Positions 2,241 through 10,360 of a stretch of 20,084 nt of DNA are shown here, piece by piece. Every line of letters starts with the position of its first letter. Position 1 is the first letter of the stretch. The stretch comes from a virus, in IMG/VR virus record IMGVR_UViG_3300032116_001655, positions 1 to 20,084 of that record; one strand, written 5' to 3'. A program made the translations under genes and the position numbers. A model generated the notes under the pieces. That model ran no database searches, was not told where the DNA came from, and saw nothing but the letters and a program-made list of their open reading frames with translations.

Positions 2241-3212
2241 ATGGCCGGAGAAACCACAACCTCCTCCCTTTCGGTTGACCAGGTAGCCTTTGACCGCCTT
2301 GCGTACTTCGCATTGCGCTCAGAACTCTTGTTCGACCAGGCTGCCGATGTGCAGCCAACCCAACAGGCAATGCCTGGTACGGGTGTCACATTCACCATCT
2401 TTGCAGACATCGCAGCAGCGACCAGCACACTCAACGAAGTAACTGACGTTACCCCAACTGCCCTCAGCGACAGCCAGGTAACCGTTACCCTCAACGAGTA
2501 CGGTAACGCTGTTGTTACAACCGCAAAGCTTCGTGGAACCGCGTTCCTTGATGTCAATGCTTCGGCAGCAAACATCGTGGGCTACAACGCTGGCGACTCA
2601 ATTGACCAGGTTGTTTCAGCCGTTCTTGCAGCAGGATCCAATGTGGTCTATGCAACCGGTGGCGCAACCGACCCGTCAAGCCGCACGACCATCAACACCG
2701 ATGACACGCTCGCTGGTGACGATGTTCGCAAGGTTGTCGCACAGCTCCGCAAGGCCAATGTCGCCACGTTCAATGGCGCGTACATGGGTTACATTCACCC
2801 TGACGTGTCCTACGACTTCCGTGGTGCCAACGGTGCAACGAACTGGCGTGACCCACACGTGTACAGCGATCCCGCCAACATCTACAACGGCGAAATCGGA
2901 CAGTGGGAATCGGTGCGTTTCATTGAAACCCCACGCGCTCCGCTGTTTGCAAATGCGTCAGACAACTCCGGTTCTGCCGGCAACATTGACGTGTACGCAA
3001 CCTTGGTTATGGGCCGTCAGGCTCTCGCCAAGGCGTACAGCACCACCGATGGAAACGGCGCAAACCCGAAGATTGTTCGCGGCACCGTGACCGACTACTT
3101 GCAGCGTCTCCAGCCAATCGGCTGGTACTGGCTGGGTGGCTATGGTCGCTTCCGCGAGGCATCACTTCGCCGCATCGAGTCGGCTTCGTCTATCGGTACA
3201 AACGCTTCGTAG
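2241..3212 (+). CDS. Major capsid protein, N4-gp56-like (HK97 fold)
   Basis: This 323-residue protein has a strong AAGGAG site (2228-2233) eight bases from its ATG. It carries the recognisable order of the N4-gp56 / P22-coat-like capsid family: an N-terminal helix with a conserved 'LRSELLFDQAADV' segment, a 'PG.GVTFTIFADIAAAT..L.EVTDVTP..LSDS.V.V.L.EYGN.V.TT' beta region, a central helix (SIDQVVSAVL), 'MGYIHPDVSYDFR', 'GEIGQWESVRFIETPRAP', 'ATLVMGRQALAK', and a C-terminal 'DYLQRLQPIGWYWLGGYGRFREASLRRIESASSIG'-type ending given here only in outline. Length is usual for the family. No N-terminal delta domain is evident because a separate scaffold gene precedes it. Codon choice is rich in C-ending codons, as expected for a highly expressed gene. 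Confidence 0.92.
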   Translation: MAGETTTSSLSVDQVAFDRLAYFALRSELLFDQAADVQPTQQAMPGTGVTFTIFADIAAATSTLNEVTDVTPTALSDSQVTVTLNEYGNAVVTTAKLRGTAFLDVNASAANIVGYNAGDSIDQVVSAVLAAGSNVVYATGGATDPSSRTTINTDDTLAGDDVRKVVAQLRKANVATFNGAYMGYIHPDVSYDFRGANGATNWRDPHVYSDPANIYNGEIGQWESVRFIETPRAPLFANASDNSGSAGNIDVYATLVMGRQALAKAYSTTDGNGANPKIVRGTVTDYLQRLQPIGWYWLGGYGRFREASLRRIESASSIGTNAS

Positions 3213-3563: not shown

Positions 3564-3829
3564 TACTGCATCAACGCACCCACCCCAACCTTGATGTTGA
3601 AGGCTGTTTCGGATGCAAGGTTGCCCATGTCAAAACTGGCCCCAACCCGACTACAACGGGCGGTAAGCGGGCTTCTGAGATTAACGCAACCGAATCCCGT
3701 TGGCATAAGGATATGCCCGCCTACAAGCGTTTACGGGCTGATGGGTTGCAACCTAAACGCATTGACGGATGCGCTGAGATTGAAAAGAAAGCGAAAGAAT
3801 CATGGCAGGTGGAAACAGGCCTGGTCTGA
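3560..3829 (+). CDS. Small CxxC protein, unknown function
   Basis: This 89-residue basic protein starts at a GTG that overlaps the preceding stop (GTGA), which implies coupled translation. It has a CFGC motif at residues 16-19, preceded by two His residues in the first eight positions, so one metal site is possible. The rest contains 'WHKDMPAYKRLRADGLQPKRIDGCAEIEKKA', summarised here as a conserved-looking 'D..AYKRLR.DGLQP..IDGCA..E..A' block that I recognise from phage hypothetical proteins. The role is unknown. The next gene starts 28 bases before this one ends, the longest overlap in the window. Confidence 0.65.
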   Translation: MILHQRTHPNLDVEGCFGCKVAHVKTGPNPTTTGGKRASEINATESRWHKDMPAYKRLRADGLQPKRIDGCAEIEKKAKESWQVETGLV

Positions 3830-4935
3830 AAACCATTTGCCTTGAAGGGGTTGATGCCTCACATTTTGGTTACGGCAATATGTTCAAATCTCTTGAACGA
3901 CATTTACCGAAAACCGTGACAAATGATCCGCTATCTGAGGTGCGGGTATCTTGTGTGCAGCCTGACATGGTTAAAGGCTGGTACGAGGGGCAGAAGCGTG
4001 TCGTGTTTACGATGTGGGAAACGACTGAATTGCCGGATCGGTTTGCGGATCGGCTTGCACAGTTTGACCAAGTGATTGTTCCTTGTCTTCACAATGTTGA
4101 GTTGTTCAGTCAATATCACAACAATGTAGGACTGGTGCCATTGGGTATTGACCCGAAGATTTGGAAACCATGTCCCGCCCCTAAGAATAAGAAGTTTCGG
4201 TTTGTGGCTGGTGGCTCATCGTGGCAACGCAAAGGACTAGATCTTGTGGTCAAAGCATTTGAAGCACTAGATGTTGTAGGTGCAGAGTTAGTGTTGAAGA
4301 TCCCGCCAACTGTTAAAGGGGAAGCACCAGCTATTTCTAGCCCGAACATCAAGGTTGTGGATTCTTGGCTGACGGTAGCAGAGGAGTATGACCTGTATGC
4401 CACCGCAGATTGTTTCGTTGCAGCCACCCGTGGCGAAGGGTTTGGTTTAATGCCATTACAGGCAATAGCAATGGGCATCCCGACAATTATGGCCGACAAC
4501 ACCGGTCATTCAGATTTTATTGACTTGGCAAGCATACGAATCCCGTCAAGCCCAACCCCCGCTAACCATCCTGCGGTTTGGAATAAAGGCAACTGGCATG
4601 AGGTGGATGTCCCTGAACTTTCACGCGCAATGGTTTGGGCGATGGATGAAAAGATTGAGATGCGTGAGCGATCCAAATGGTCAGCTACCGAAGCCGCCAA
4701 AATGACGTGGGCGAAATCCGCTAAAACCTTGTGCGATGTTGCTGGTACTGGTGGAGTGTTGGATAATCCAAAGTGGTTGTCTGCGGATGAACCGACTGTT
4801 TGGATTACAGCAAACCGCCGTGTGCAAGCCGACATTGGCCGGCATCACATTGACCTACGCAAAGGGGAATCAGCCCAAGTTTCCCCAAATGTGCGTGATA
4901 TTCTGCGTGAGTCAGGAATGTTGAAAGAGGACTAA
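3802..4935 (+). CDS. GT-B (GT4-like) glycosyltransferase with extra C-terminal domain
   Basis: This 377-residue protein should transfer a sugar from a nucleotide-sugar donor. The C-terminal Rossmann half is clear: 'RFVAGGSSWQRKGLDLVVKAF' type segment at about 133-153 with R143/K144 in the donor-phosphate position, and 'RGEGFGLMPLQAIAMGIPTI' at 210-229. The first Glu of the usual E-x7-E pair is E212, but the second position is Q220. The N-terminal half ('FTMWETTELP', 'VIVPC', 'VPLGID') is of the phage/capsule GT4 type. Residues from about 330 form an extra module (PTVWITANRRVQADIG, then VRDILRESGML) unlike the catalytic core and more like small phage head-associated domains. It starts inside the previous gene with weak initiation signals. 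Its place among head genes suggests a virion substrate, but DNA or host glycan are alternatives. Confidence 0.85.
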   Translation: MAGGNRPGLKTICLEGVDASHFGYGNMFKSLERHLPKTVTNDPLSEVRVSCVQPDMVKGWYEGQKRVVFTMWETTELPDRFADRLAQFDQVIVPCLHNVELFSQYHNNVGLVPLGIDPKIWKPCPAPKNKKFRFVAGGSSWQRKGLDLVVKAFEALDVVGAELVLKIPPTVKGEAPAISSPNIKVVDSWLTVAEEYDLYATADCFVAATRGEGFGLMPLQAIAMGIPTIMADNTGHSDFIDLASIRIPSSPTPANHPAVWNKGNWHEVDVPELSRAMVWAMDEKIEMRERSKWSATEAAKMTWAKSAKTLCDVAGTGGVLDNPKWLSADEPTVWITANRRVQADIGRHHIDLRKGESAQVSPNVRDILRESGMLKED

Positions 4936-5330
4936 TGGCTTACACAAAGCCCCAACTTCGAGAGCGTCTAAAGAATCAAATCATGGGCGGTTCTAAAGGT
5001 GGCAAGCCTGGGCAATGGTCTGCCCGTAAAGCCCAACTTCTTGCTCAAGCCTACGAGAAAGCTGGCGGTGGTTATTCGGGTGCTAAAACAGCTGGTCAAA
5101 AATCGTTGTCTAAATGGACCAAAGAGGACTGGGGAACCAAATCAGGCAAGCCCAGCACCCAAGGTTCTAAAGCTACGGGCGAACGGTATCTGCCTAGGAA
5201 AGCTCGAGAGGCTTTGTCGTCTAAAGAGTATGCGGCTACTTCTAAAGCCAAAAGGGAAGGCACCCGTAAAGGCAAACAGTTTGTGGCGCAACCTAAGAAG
5301 ATTGCTAAAAAGACTGCGGGGTTCAGGTGA
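4935..5330 (+). CDS. Small basic protein, DUF5872-like
   Basis: This 131-residue, very basic protein starts at an ATG overlapping the previous TAA by one base. It opens with 'LRERLKNQIMGGSKGGKPG' followed by 'WSARKAQLLAQAYEKAGGGY', has a central 'SLSKWTKEDWGTKSGKPS', then 'RYLPRKAREALSSKEYAAT' and a Lys-rich 'GKQFVAQPKKIAKK' end. The W(T)xExWxT...RYLP...L...E..AT...K pattern matches my memory of the DUF5872 family found in phages and algal viruses. That name is recalled and not checked. Its function is unknown. Charge suggests binding to DNA or to a negative capsid interior. First of five consecutive Lys-rich products. Confidence 0.7.
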   Translation: MAYTKPQLRERLKNQIMGGSKGGKPGQWSARKAQLLAQAYEKAGGGYSGAKTAGQKSLSKWTKEDWGTKSGKPSTQGSKATGERYLPRKAREALSSKEYAATSKAKREGTRKGKQFVAQPKKIAKKTAGFR

Positions 5331-5611
5331 ATAAGAAAGATCCACGGTTGGCGCGGGCTGGTGTGTCAGGTTTCAACAAACCTAAGCGCACCCCTAATCA
5401 CCCTAAGAAATCTCATGTTGTTGTCGCTAAAGAGGGCGATCAGGTGAAGACGATCCGTTTCGGTCAGCAGGGCGTGTCGGGTTCCCCAAAGAAAGCTGGC
5501 GAGTCGGCTTCATATCGGAAACGCCGTGAGTCTTTCAAAGCTCGTCATGCTTCTAACATAAATAAGGGTCGAATGTCGGCTGCGTACTGGGCTGACAAGG
5601 TAAAGTGGTAG
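5327..5611 (+). CDS. Small basic protein with SFKARH...AAYWADKVKW end
   Basis: This 94-residue, strongly basic protein begins at a GTG overlapping the previous TGA (GTGA). It opens 'DPRLARAGVSGFNKPKRTP', continues 'KSHVVVAKEGDQVKTIRFG' and 'QQGVSGSPKKAGES', and ends 'RRESFKARHASNINKG' then 'MSAAYWADKVKW'. The 'VKTIRFG(Q/D)' plus 'SFxARH...KxxAxYWxxKxW' ending is a pattern I recognise across aquatic phages and phage-like contigs, always in small proteins without assigned function. The strict C-terminal Trp-rich ending argues for a folded domain and not just a charged tail. It may be virion-associated, given its position between head and tail genes. Confidence 0.7.
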   Translation: MNKKDPRLARAGVSGFNKPKRTPNHPKKSHVVVAKEGDQVKTIRFGQQGVSGSPKKAGESASYRKRRESFKARHASNINKGRMSAAYWADKVKW

Positions 5612-5632
5612 CACAAACGAACAGGAGTTGTT

Positions 5633-5803
5633 ATGCCCAAGGTAGGTAAAAAAGAGTTTCCGTACACCAAGGCCGGTATGAAGGCTGCGTCTGTGGCGAA
5701 AAAAGCGGGAATGGTCAAGAAGATGGCTGCCGGCAGGAACGAAGCTATGCAAAAGAAAGTAATGATGGCCAAAAAGATGGCTGCCAAGAAGAAGATGAAA
5801 TAA
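5633..5803 (+). CDS. Tiny Lys/Met/Ala-rich basic protein (56 aa)
   Basis: AGGAG at 5623-5627 precedes the ATG at 5633 by a good distance. The product is 56 residues: it begins MPKVGKKEFPYTKAGMKAA and ends in Lys/Met repeats (KKVMMAKKMAAKKKMK). About a third of the residues are Lys or Arg and there are almost no acids. The 'KxFPYTxAGxxAA' opening recurs in small phage proteins in my recollection. The body should form an amphipathic or fully charged helix able to bind DNA. Its TAA shares a base with the next ATG. It is shorter than usual gene-calling limits, but the ribosome-binding site, coupling and conserved opening support it. Confidence 0.65.
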   Translation: MPKVGKKEFPYTKAGMKAASVAKKAGMVKKMAAGRNEAMQKKVMMAKKMAAKKKMK

Positions 5804-5934
5804 TGCACGGCAAAGGTAGCAAGAAAGCCATGATGCGCCATGAGAAGATGGAAGGCGCAAAAGAGCGCATGATGGAGTACGGCAAAAAGGCAGCCAAGAA
5901 GAAGGTTGCCGCTAAGCGAAAGAAGATGAAGTAA
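5803..5934 (+). CDS. Tiny Lys/Met-rich basic protein (43 aa)
   Basis: The ATG shares its A with the last base of the upstream TAA, and the gene's own TAA shares its last base with the next ATG. The 43-residue product starts MHGKGSKKAMMRHEKMEGAK and ends KKAAKKKVAAKRKKMK. Its tail resembles that of the 56-residue neighbour, so the two may be diverged duplicates. There is no membrane segment. It is probably a nucleic-acid-binding or capsid-filling peptide. Expression relies on coupling because no separate ribosome-binding site is evident apart from the purine-rich end of the gene before it. Confidence 0.6.
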   Translation: MHGKGSKKAMMRHEKMEGAKERMMEYGKKAAKKKVAAKRKKMK

Positions 5935-6125
5935 TGGCACCCATTAAGAAACAACCAATGCCGAAGAAGCCGAAGCCTGTTACGGGTGGACCAATGCCAA
6001 AGCCTAGTTCACCTGGGCGAATGTTCCCTGGTGGACCAAGCGGCCCAGTTAAGAAAAAGCCCGTGGCCCCAGGTGAAAAGCGGTACACAATCATGCCTGT
6101 GAAGCCAAGGAAAAAGAAAAAGTAA
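5934..6125 (+). CDS. Small Pro/Lys-rich protein (63 aa)
   Basis: This 63-residue protein is almost wholly Pro, Lys and Gly. It opens MAPIKKQPMPKKPKPVTGGP and closes KPRKKKK. Only one short stretch (EKRYTIMPV) looks able to form a strand. It is likely disordered and cationic, suited to contacting nucleic acid or an acidic surface. It begins at an overlapping TAATG junction and its TAA abuts the next ATG directly. Fifth and last of the basic set that starts at 4935. Confidence 0.6.
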   Translation: MAPIKKQPMPKKPKPVTGGPMPKPSSPGRMFPGGPSGPVKKKPVAPGEKRYTIMPVKPRKKKK

Positions 6126-6466
6126 ATGGCTGTACCTGCGACCCAAAACTTGACCATCACCCGTGGTGACACAGAGACAGTGAATGTCACAATCACCACC
6201 GATGGCACAACACCCGTAGATATCACGGGTCGCACTTACGCATCTCAGATTCGATCCAACGCAGACTCAAACACGATTGCTGCAACACTCACCTGCACCC
6301 TTGTCACGCCAGCAAGCGGCATCTTGAAAGCTGTACTTTCCGCAACGGATTCAGCTGTGCTAACACCTGGCTACTACCAATGGGACTTGCAAGAAAACGC
6401 ATCCGGCACAATCTCCACGATCCTTTCCGGAACTGTCACGGTACTTGCTGATGTAACGAGGCTGTA

Positions 6467-6467
<1 letters not shown>
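6126..6467 (+). CDS. Small beta-rich virion protein (BppU-N/Ig-like)
   Basis: This 113-residue protein is Thr/Ala-rich with alternating hydrophobic strands and no catalytic motif. The pattern '[33 protein letters not shown]' and a later '[24 protein letters not shown]' match the style of small Ig-like domains found at the N-terminus of baseplate upper proteins and in phage fibre anchors: each has a 'RGD(T/S)' opening, a 'dltG.t....ir' strand and a 'G.Y.WdL.....g....l.G.v.V' ending. It follows the previous stop without a gap and overlaps the collagen-like fibre gene by one base. It may therefore anchor or cap that fibre. This function is inferred from order and fold style. Confidence 0.6.
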
Positions 6468-8383
<1,916 letters not shown>

Positions 8384-8392
8384 TGACCCGCC

Positions 8393-9451
8393 ATGAAGGT
8401 TGCAATTTACACAATCGCCAAAAACGAAGAACAATTCGTTGACCGCTGGGCAGACTCCTGCGCTGAAGCCGACTACCGGCTAATCGTAGACACAGGCTCA
8501 ACCGACAACACCCTGGCTAAAGCCTACGAAAACGGTGTAGACACAGCCGAAATCATCATTAGTCCCTGGCGATTTGATGATGCCCGCAACGCAGCACTAG
8601 CCCTACTACCAGCCGACATTGACTACTGCATCGCCCTAGACATGGATGAGATCCTGCTACCAGGTTGGCGTGACCAGCTTGAACAGATGCACGACCAGCA
8701 AATCACCCGCCCCCGCTACAAATACACCTGGTCATGGAAACCTAACGGGCAACCTGACCTACAGTACGGTGGCGACAAAATCCATACCCGATTCGGATAC
8801 CGATGGAAACATAAAGTCCACGAAACCCTCATCCCATCCATCGTGGAAAAGCAAGGATGGTGCGATCTAGAAATCCACCACCATCCCGACAACTCTAAAA
8901 GCAGAGGGCAATACTACGAGTTGTTAGCAGAAGCCGCACAAGAACACCCCACCGATGACCGAATAGCTTTCTATTACGCTCGAGAACTATTTTACAAAGC
9001 ACGTAACGGTGAAGCCTTACTAGAGTTCCAAAGATATCTAGCGTTACCGTCAGCTACATGGCAACCCGAACGGTCAGCCGCCTACCGAATGATGGCCAAA
9101 TGCGATCCTGACAACATGGAACATTGGCTCAAGATGGCGGTACTAGAAGCTTCAGATCGGCGTGAACCTTGGTACGAGTTGGCGCATTTCCATTACGAAC
9201 GACAAAACTGGCGGGGATGCTACATGGCGGCATCAACCTGTTTAACGATTGTGAATATGCCATTGGAATACCTGTGCGAATCCCATGCCTGGGGTGCCTC
9301 ACCGCACGATCTTGCAGCAATATCAGCACATCATCTCGGTTTACACAAAGAAGCCGCACAACACGGAACAAACGCCCTGAACCTAGAGCCGGACAACGAA
9401 CGCCTCAAAGCGAACCTCAGTTTCTATGCTGACGCTATTGCTACAATCTGA
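8393..9451 (+). CDS. GT2 (GT-A) glycosyltransferase with TPR-like C-terminal half
   Basis: This 352-residue protein has the family 2 pattern: 'AKNEEQFV' at 9-16, 'VDTGSTDNT' at 32-40 for donor binding, 'WRFDDARNAAL' at 59-69, and the metal-binding 'LDMDEIL' at 82-88 (DxD-like D83/D85). 'HKVHE' at 140-144 and 'IHHHPD' at 161-166 are typical of the GT2/TPR fusions seen in bacteria and phages. From about 175 to the end the sequence is paired helices (AFYYARELFYKARNGEALLEF, WYELAHFHYERQNW) like tetratricopeptide repeats, which could hold a protein substrate. The start lies 9 bases after the collagen fibre stop; no good ribosome-binding site is seen, so coupling is likely. It lacks membrane segments and should act in the cytoplasm during assembly. 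Confidence 0.88.
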   Translation: MKVAIYTIAKNEEQFVDRWADSCAEADYRLIVDTGSTDNTLAKAYENGVDTAEIIISPWRFDDARNAALALLPADIDYCIALDMDEILLPGWRDQLEQMHDQQITRPRYKYTWSWKPNGQPDLQYGGDKIHTRFGYRWKHKVHETLIPSIVEKQGWCDLEIHHHPDNSKSRGQYYELLAEAAQEHPTDDRIAFYYARELFYKARNGEALLEFQRYLALPSATWQPERSAAYRMMAKCDPDNMEHWLKMAVLEASDRREPWYELAHFHYERQNWRGCYMAASTCLTIVNMPLEYLCESHAWGASPHDLAAISAHHLGLHKEAAQHGTNALNLEPDNERLKANLSFYADAIATI

Positions 9452-9469: not shown

Positions 9470-10360
9470 ATGGCGACAGTTGCAACAGTAATCAACAAGA
9501 CTCAACGCCAACTGCTGTCGGGTCAAGTTGAAGAAAAGAACAAACTGAACGGCGCAATCAACAGCACCACCACCAGCATTGCCACCGTCTACGATCTGAA
9601 CGGCTTACGCCCAGGCACGGTTTTTGAGATTGACTCCGAAATGTTTTACATTTGGGAATCCTCAACATCTTCCAAAACCCTTACCGTGGAACGGGGATGG
9701 AACGGCACCACCGCAGCCAGCCACGCCACTAACGCGATAATTACCGCCAACCCCCGCTTCCCTAGAGCGCAAATCTTGGAAGCCATCAACGATGAAATCG
9801 CAGACCTGTCCAGCCCAGTTAACGGCCTGTACCAAATGAAGATTGTTGACATTGACGAATATGACGGATCTGACGTGATGATTAACCTGCCAGTGTTCGG
9901 TGGAATCATTGAGCTTTACGATGTGCGTCTGCGATACACGTCAGACGACTATCCACTAATCCGCAAAACCCAACTTGTGCGTGACTTGCCAACCTCAGAT
10001 TTCCAATCAGGATATGCAATCAAGTTCAACCAGCGCACCCGCGCCGGCAAACTTCGGGTAACTTTCAAAGCTCCTTTTGCGCCTATCTGTAATGAATCAG
10101 ACAACCTTCAAACTGTCGCTGGATTAGCCACCAGCATGGAAGACATCCTTGCCATCGGAGCGCAGATCAGGCTTATGTCACCACGGGAAATACGCCGCAA
10201 CCTCATAGACACCCAGGGCGACACCCGCCGTTCCGATGAGGTTCCACCTGGAGCCGTTGCCGGTTCAATCACCAACCTGCTTCGGTTGCGCCGTGACCGC
10301 ATCACCGCCGAAGCAATGAAACTAGCCAAACAATATCCCACCTTCCTAGCAAGGGATTAG
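9470..10360 (+). CDS. Head-tail adaptor / tail structural protein
   Basis: This 296-residue protein has an AGGAG site at 9460-9464. Residues about 27-95 form a beta module ('PGTVFEIDSEMFYIWE', 'KTLTVERGWNGTTAASH', 'NAIITANPRFP'). The helix 'FPRAQILEAINDEIADLSS' at about 96-115 is a form I associate with phage adaptor proteins. A beta domain and a C-terminal helical region follow (ITAEAMKLAKQYP). No enzymatic residues are seen. It sits directly before the propeller-like tail gene, an order compatible with a gp11/gp12-like adaptor-nozzle pair of short-tailed phages. That comparison rests on order and predicted fold only. Confidence 0.6.
   Translation: MATVATVINKTQRQLLSGQVEEKNKLNGAINSTTTSIATVYDLNGLRPGTVFEIDSEMFYIWESSTSSKTLTVERGWNGTTAASHATNAIITANPRFPRAQILEAINDEIADLSSPVNGLYQMKIVDIDEYDGSDVMINLPVFGGIIELYDVRLRYTSDDYPLIRKTQLVRDLPTSDFQSGYAIKFNQRTRAGKLRVTFKAPFAPICNESDNLQTVAGLATSMEDILAIGAQIRLMSPREIRRNLIDTQGDTRRSDEVPPGAVAGSITNLLRLRRDRITAEAMKLAKQYPTFLARD

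Follow-up and report, generated by a model that had tools for sequence, protein, structure and literature searches.

A conserved island of small lysine-rich proteins in the head module of aquatic tailed phages and its possible role in head assembly

Among the closest described relatives of the genes analyzed here is Tlr6F, the family also designated DUF5754 (PMC12220804). Yutin et al. (2015, PMC4642659) reported Tlr6f to be conserved in almost every polinton-like virus, in several virophages, in many Megavirales and in some phages, and described it as having no similarity to known domains. The family, on record since 2015 as a small protein of these viruses, has no function assigned to it. The element studied in this work is a run of five small genes, P1 to P5, at positions 4935-6125 of the virus record IMGVR_UViG_3300032116_001655, whose 20,084 bases are referred to as the window and in which 31 genes were counted. 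P2 is a homolog of Tlr6F. Many aquatic tailed phages carry, among their head genes, an exchangeable island encoding small Lys-rich proteins, of which the five genes represent one version.

The lysine-rich island in the window and in its relatives

The five genes were co-directional (+ strand) and tightly packed. P1 (4935..5330) encodes 131 amino acids, with an isoelectric point (pI) of 10.6 and a net charge of +24; P2 (5327..5611), which has a GTG start, encodes 94 (pI 11.2, +18); P3 (5633..5803) encodes 56 (pI 10.7, +16); P4 (5803..5934) encodes 43 (pI 10.6, +13); and P5 (5934..6125) encodes 63 (pI 11.4, +17). Cysteine was absent from all of them. The five proteins occupied ranks 1 to 5 by net charge per residue among the 31 window genes, and an equally cationic run was obtained in 30 of 200,000 shuffles of the gene order, made with a hand-picked gene list (permutation P ~1.5e-4). 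The junctions were -4 (P1/P2), +21 (P2/P3), -1 (P3/P4) and -1 (P4/P5) and, at the outer edges, -1 with the glycosyltransferase gene before P1 and 0 with the gene that follows P5 at 6126.

Selection was analyzed against a close relative, locus L001 (L numbers designate loci compared with the window). The ratio of non-synonymous to synonymous substitution rates (dN/dS) was 0.09 for P1, 0.02 for P2, 0.12 for P3, 0.05 for P4 and 0.20 for P5, the last value being based on 35 aligned codons only; the middle of P5 carries a large in-frame deletion in L001, and its ends are conserved. The synonymous rate (dS) was 0.57-0.87 for P1-P5. These results indicated that all five genes are coding and under purifying selection.

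To place the island in other phages, IMG/VR was scanned with P1, which gave at least 599 relatives, of which 80 loci were kept, and with P2, for which the number among the matches listed is likewise a lower bound. In 11 distinct loci the interval from the major capsid protein (MCP) to the phrog_7578 protein (or the gene of the type found at 6126) was readable. P2 was present in 11/11 of them, P1 in 9/11, P3 in 7/11 and P4 in 5/11; P1 adjoined P2 in six of the 11, and the remaining slots were filled by other small basic open reading frames (ORFs). Lys-rich cationic ORFs amounted to 47 of the 86 inside this interval versus 0 of the 98 outside it (Fisher 2.7e-20). Because ORF calling followed a greedy longest-ORF rule and the loci share ancestry, this P value overstates independence, but the contrast between inside and outside is total.

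Similar runs were observed in cultured phages. In the SAR11 phage HTVC033P, seven successive annotated coding sequences (gp42-gp36) have a pI of 10.8-12.0, and among them are a DUF6321 protein and the two separate halves of P1; four consecutive basic coding sequences were found in MED4-184, and P1 adjoins P2 in S-CRES1. Among the cases with a recognized MCP, this gene was located eight genes or fewer from a stand-alone P2 in 50 of 53 and from P1 in 44 of 56. The island consists of compact basic proteins, with P1 and P2 predicted to be folded, mostly annotated as hypothetical and carried by abundant phages of SAR11, SAR116, Roseobacter and cyanobacteria. Additionally, small basic proteins of the DUF6321 type (KSFCARM...KALRAWNC) were seen in such islands (L337, 5056-5307; L014, 4863-5117), and in PHROGs the DUF6321 domain was also found at the C-terminus of long proteins.

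Much of the original prediction, made from the DNA letters, was borne out by these data. The five consecutive, strongly cationic Lys-rich proteins were found as described (pI 10.6-11.4, the five highest charges per residue), most of their genes overlap or abut, and they lie between head and fiber genes, after the MCP and before a collagen-like fiber protein and the phrog_7578 protein. Conserved-looking motifs, anticipated in at least two of the proteins, were real in four of the five (P1 and P2 as PHROG families, P3 and P4 as motifs). The original prediction also called for a check of whether the five travel as a block in related phages, and as a fixed block they do not: P1, P2 and P3 recur together, but membership and order are fluid. 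Hence, what is conserved is the island, and not a fixed five-gene block.

The island proteins and the fusions of the P2 domain

The match of P2 to phrog_7595 (3.3e-40) was full-length, with residues 3-94 aligned to positions 4-96 of the 96 in the profile. Its score against the DUF5754/Tlr6F model (PF19058) was 13.2 bits, below the cut-off of 27.4. The relative L051 matched both PF19058 (50 bits, 3.2e-13) and phrog_7595 (3.5e-14), and the core motif FG...R..F.aRH...YW...W aligned end to end between P2 and the Tlr6F family. For this reason the window P2 is regarded as a homolog of Tlr6F and not as a member of PF19058. P2 also matched phrog_220, "minor head protein and DNA pilot" (6.4e-11 for L051). 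The AlphaFold2 model of P2 is a small fold predicted with confidence and consists of a beta-hairpin and two helices (predicted local distance difference test, pLDDT, 86.8; predicted template modeling score, pTM, 0.77). When this model was searched against viral models, the matches (E 1e-10 to 7e-3) were phage proteins, an XkdF protein, ICP1 ORF125, a 1393-amino-acid protein and a 95-amino-acid marseillevirus protein, from Tunisvirus; this last match, in BFVD, had E 7.3e-3, a probability of 1.00 and a template modeling score of 0.61.

A first clue to the function of P2 was its fusion to head proteins. ICP1 ORF125 (278 amino acids) carries a PF14550 XkdF-like protease domain at residues 36-160 (6.6e-10) followed by phrog_7595 at 184-261 (5.8e-11), and CRP-6 gp55 (229 amino acids) carries phrog_7595 at 20-93 (5e-16) followed by PF14550 at 108-228 (7.2e-18). 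The P2 domain is thus attached to either end of the XkdF-like protease, N-terminal in CRP-6 gp55 and C-terminal in ICP1 ORF125. A hidden Markov model built from stand-alone P2 proteins only detected both CRP-6 gp55 (1.3e-11) and ICP1 ORF125 (2.3e-8). The protease activity of ICP1 Gp125 is itself a prediction (PMC9040626). Fusions of the CRP-6 type were found in at least 80 IMG/VR loci, longer versions adding DUF5824 or ChaB, and the MCP lay three genes downstream in 52 of the 56 fused ORFs with a recognized capsid gene, these forming one related group and not independent cases.

A different fusion was observed in Aphanizomenon phage CL131, whose gp012 (1393 amino acids; L339, 2884-7065) contains Phage_portal_3 (60-419), an inorganic pyrophosphatase domain, InPase (631-752), and Mu_F (991-1103), with a P2-like stretch at about 539-604 (tblastn 1e-8) between portal and InPase. 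The protease and portal-MuF fusions, together with the proximity to the capsid gene, tied the P2 domain to head assembly in phages. It was also observed that phrog_1530, named "DNA methyltransferase", matches XkdF-type protease proteins (L085, 4431-5267; L091, 4935-5624), so its name looks wrong for at least part of the family.

P1 consists of two modules. Module A (about residues 1-49) matched phrog_17747 (2.3e-20 over residues 3-47), and module B (about residues 50-131) matched phrog_14910 (8e-34 over residues 51-131). The window P1 scored 19.6 bits against DUF5872 (PF19197), below the cut-off of 27.5, and was therefore filed as DUF5872-like; the same model was matched by 38 of 40 viral relatives of P1 (best E 4.2e-8) and by 10 of 26 cellular relatives (best 2.1e-6). 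The predicted structure was all-helical (pLDDT 92.3, pTM 0.64). The two modules were separate ORFs in 33 viral loci versus one fused ORF in 74, and the split pairs listed have a roughly constant boundary, module A ending in GGGY and module B restarting at about (S/P)Q.SL (for example, L082, 6258-6617 and 8380-8619; L337, 3962-4141 and 4537-4785). In HMO-2011, 1.8 kb separates the two halves, and a methanesulfonate monooxygenase gene lies in this gap.

The idea that P1 is confined to viruses was dropped when chromosomal relatives with 52-60% identity were found in Sphingomonas, Methylobacterium, Azospirillum, Roseomonas, Aureimonas, Pseudomonas and Myxococcus. A C-terminal segment of the Rho_N/SAP-like type, called Rho_N-like below, was detected in 12 of the 26 cellular relatives scanned (E <=0.01, best 3.1e-7). 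Rho_N-like segments are a nucleic-acid-binding type of fold, and these tails weakly support the view that P1 acts on nucleic acid. The chromosomal P1 relatives of L265 and L314 each have a DUF3140 gene beside them.

For the shortest proteins, a tblastn search with P3 against phages gave no match, and P3 and P4 were therefore tested by motif. P3 is formed by the motif MPKVGKKEFPYTKAG and a Lys/Met/Ala-rich tail; the pattern ^MP.V.GKK[FY]PYT..G was found in 16 distinct sequences at 20 loci, of which 19 also had P2 and 18 had P1. P4 is formed by the motif HEKMEGAKERMMEYG and a Lys-rich tail, and this motif, or one like it, was found in seven distinct sequences. Neither motif was found in shuffled ORFs. 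Both were present in one 66-amino-acid protein of the relative L002 (1533-1733), and phrog_33179 was matched by two P3 homologs. P5 is Lys/Pro-rich and had no family match.

Possible functions of the island proteins

The reading favored here, held at about even confidence, is that P1-P5 form an exchangeable kit of small basic proteins that act inside the assembling head and probably touch DNA. The proteins would be made late, alongside capsid and scaffold, and P1 and P2 would act within the head as it is being built, near the portal or in the lumen of the procapsid; there, their basic surfaces may contact the scaffold, the incoming DNA or both. P2 would come as a protein of its own or as a domain of the protease or the portal, and P3-P5, as short basic tails with small conserved heads, would add charge. 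A common role may extend to all five. The structural or DNA-condensing role put forward in the original prediction gained ground for P2, through its fusions to the protease and portal-MuF, but the likeness to the basic core proteins of other viruses was not supported as it stood, P1 and P2 being predicted to be folded and protamine-like core proteins being mostly disordered. Its statement that no function had been described was correct, with the addition that P1 and P2 belong to orphan families already described.

Several observations weigh against this head-interior role. In the parts of the literature searched, no virion proteomics or binding data were found for any family member, and complete proteomics of ICP1 virions had not yet been made as of a 2021 review (PMC9040626). 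Searches of PDB sequences with the P1 and P2 profiles gave chance-level ribosomal matches only, and Foldseek and VIA-align comparisons of both models with the PDB gave no match worth naming, a result that is not informative on fold novelty. A search of window-type contigs, some of them fragments, for proteases of the families PF14550 and PF04586 found none, so P2 either works without one there or works with an unrecognized one. Full-length chromosomal P1 relatives (L263-L336), carried by many Alphaproteobacteria and by other bacteria, have varied non-phage surroundings with no common context; hence, the P1 family is not dedicated to virions. Furthermore, Tlr6F homologs occur beyond head modules: in phage NCTB beside a thymidylate kinase, in the Flavobacterium phages immuto and elemo, in CRP-902 beside a nuclease and in Melnitz as a cytidylyltransferase fusion. 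Because of these homologs, the head role of P2 is something that we infer.

A restriction of the P2 domain to head modules, considered at first, was given up on account of NCTB, elemo, immuto, CRP-902 and Melnitz. In Methylophilales phage Melnitz-2 (L093, 2303-4255), the Tlr6F-like domain is the C-terminal part of the cytidylyltransferase protein. The record label "HVA1 family" on the CRP-902 protein was unsupported by Pfam.

The same fusions could also be explained if the proteins were assembly helpers absent from the mature virion, which would work in the core of the procapsid, together with scaffold or protease, and then exit or be degraded, as the components of the T4 prohead core leave or are degraded at maturation. 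This would agree with the presence of the P2 domain at either end of XkdF-like maturation proteases, with the position of P2 in KBS-S-2A and MED4-184, where one gene lies between P2 and the MCP and the MuF gene is on the other side of P2, and with the basic genes placed between the scaffold-like gene and the MCP in L028 and L031. The position of P2 in KBS-S-2A and MED4-184 speaks for the favored reading as well. Nevertheless, neither PF14550 nor PF04586 was found in window-type phages and a scaffold partner needs no strong charge; this explanation is judged rather unlikely. The homologs beyond head modules, and the cellular P1 relatives with Rho_N-like tails, two of them beside DUF3140, would fit proteins made late that stay in the cytoplasm, bind nucleic acid of the host or the phage (in nucleoid remodeling, protection of replicating DNA or RNA binding) and merely share the late operon. 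Such binders would leave unexplained both the recurrent protease and portal-MuF fusions and the fixed location between capsid and tail genes, and they are considered a little less likely again.

Charge by itself is a poorer explanation. Protamine-like packaging, in which the five proteins would simply neutralize the charge of the DNA, has in its favor that all five are small, strongly basic (pI 10.6-11.4) and Lys-rich and that relatives rebuild the island from unrelated basic ORFs. However, protamine-like core proteins are mostly disordered, and an ordered structure is predicted for P1 and P2 (pLDDT 92.3 and 86.8), with invariant Trp/Gly/Arg positions, so neither would appear to be a protamine. 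By arithmetic, the full set carries +88, and about 100 sets would offset approximately one tenth of the charge if the genome is taken to be 40 kb long; this explanation is thus improbable. It is most improbable of all that the genes are charged filler or spurious ORFs, as the short, low-complexity sequences of P3-P5 might suggest. The dN/dS of 0.02-0.20 across all five and the P3 and P4 motifs kept in distinct phages agree with the original view that they are not mere filler. The selection test refutes the filler reading for P1-P4 and is based on 35 aligned codons for P5.

Gene neighborhood and comparison with known systems

The upstream boundary of the island is the MCP gene (2241..3212, + strand; PF13252, 9.9e-67; phrog_1357). 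On this side lie a scaffold-like gene, named from its position, the MCP, two small genes and a glycosyltransferase gene (phrog_2170). Downstream, a phrog_1084 protein, which also matched "L-shaped tail fiber protein assembly" less strongly (2.6e-7), is followed in turn by a collagen-like protein, by another gene resembling glycosyltransferases, so named from its sequence, and by the phrog_7578 protein (9470..10360, + strand). The latter is labeled "gp11", would occupy a position like that of T7 gp11 and is the downstream boundary in relatives. The two glycosyltransferase-like genes (3802-4935 and 8393-9451) bracket the basic island and the long collagen-like protein with GPTGATG repeats (6467-8383). 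Such a pair around a collagen-like protein in the virion block suggests that the fiber of this phage may be glycosylated.

The T4 internal head proteins and prohead core resemble the island in being small, basic, encoded in the head module and linked, in related phages, to a maturation protease. This likeness is one of position, size and charge; the window-type contigs yielded no protease of the PF14550 or PF04586 families. Baculovirus P6.9 and protamine-like core proteins (for example PMC12159748) share small size, strong basicity and occurrence in DNA viruses, whereas richness in Lys and a predicted fold set P1 and P2 apart.

With respect to DUF5872 (PF19197), the viral P1 relatives match the model, but the window P1 falls below its threshold and the cellular relatives add a Rho_N-like tail. 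The XkdF-like head maturation protease (PF14550) carries the fused P2 domain in marine phages of the CRP-6 type and in ICP1; its protease domain is absent from the window P2, and the Pfam search found it in none of P1-P5.

The P1 and P2 families were already known as orphans; the link of the Tlr6F domain to head assembly, through its protease and portal fusions, and the conserved island were not mentioned in the literature searched. Since Tlr6F is common to viruses with unrelated capsids, its function is suggested to be tied to the packaged DNA and not to one type of shell. A bolder extension, held to be rather unlikely, is that Tlr6F-type and DUF5872-type modules would be parts of a DNA-facing head-assembly system common to tailed phages and to eukaryotic nucleo-cytoplasmic large DNA viruses and polinton-like viruses despite their unrelated capsid folds, each module being either a separate basic protein or a portion of the protease or portal. 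In comparison with Tlr6F/DUF5754 (PF19058), the window P2 is sub-threshold, and that family was described, in the text available, without a function and without fusions to a head protease or portal-MuF; the two are joined by phrog_7595 through L051 and by the core motif, and the fusions to the head maturation protease and portal-MuF make the function of Tlr6F directly testable in culturable phages.

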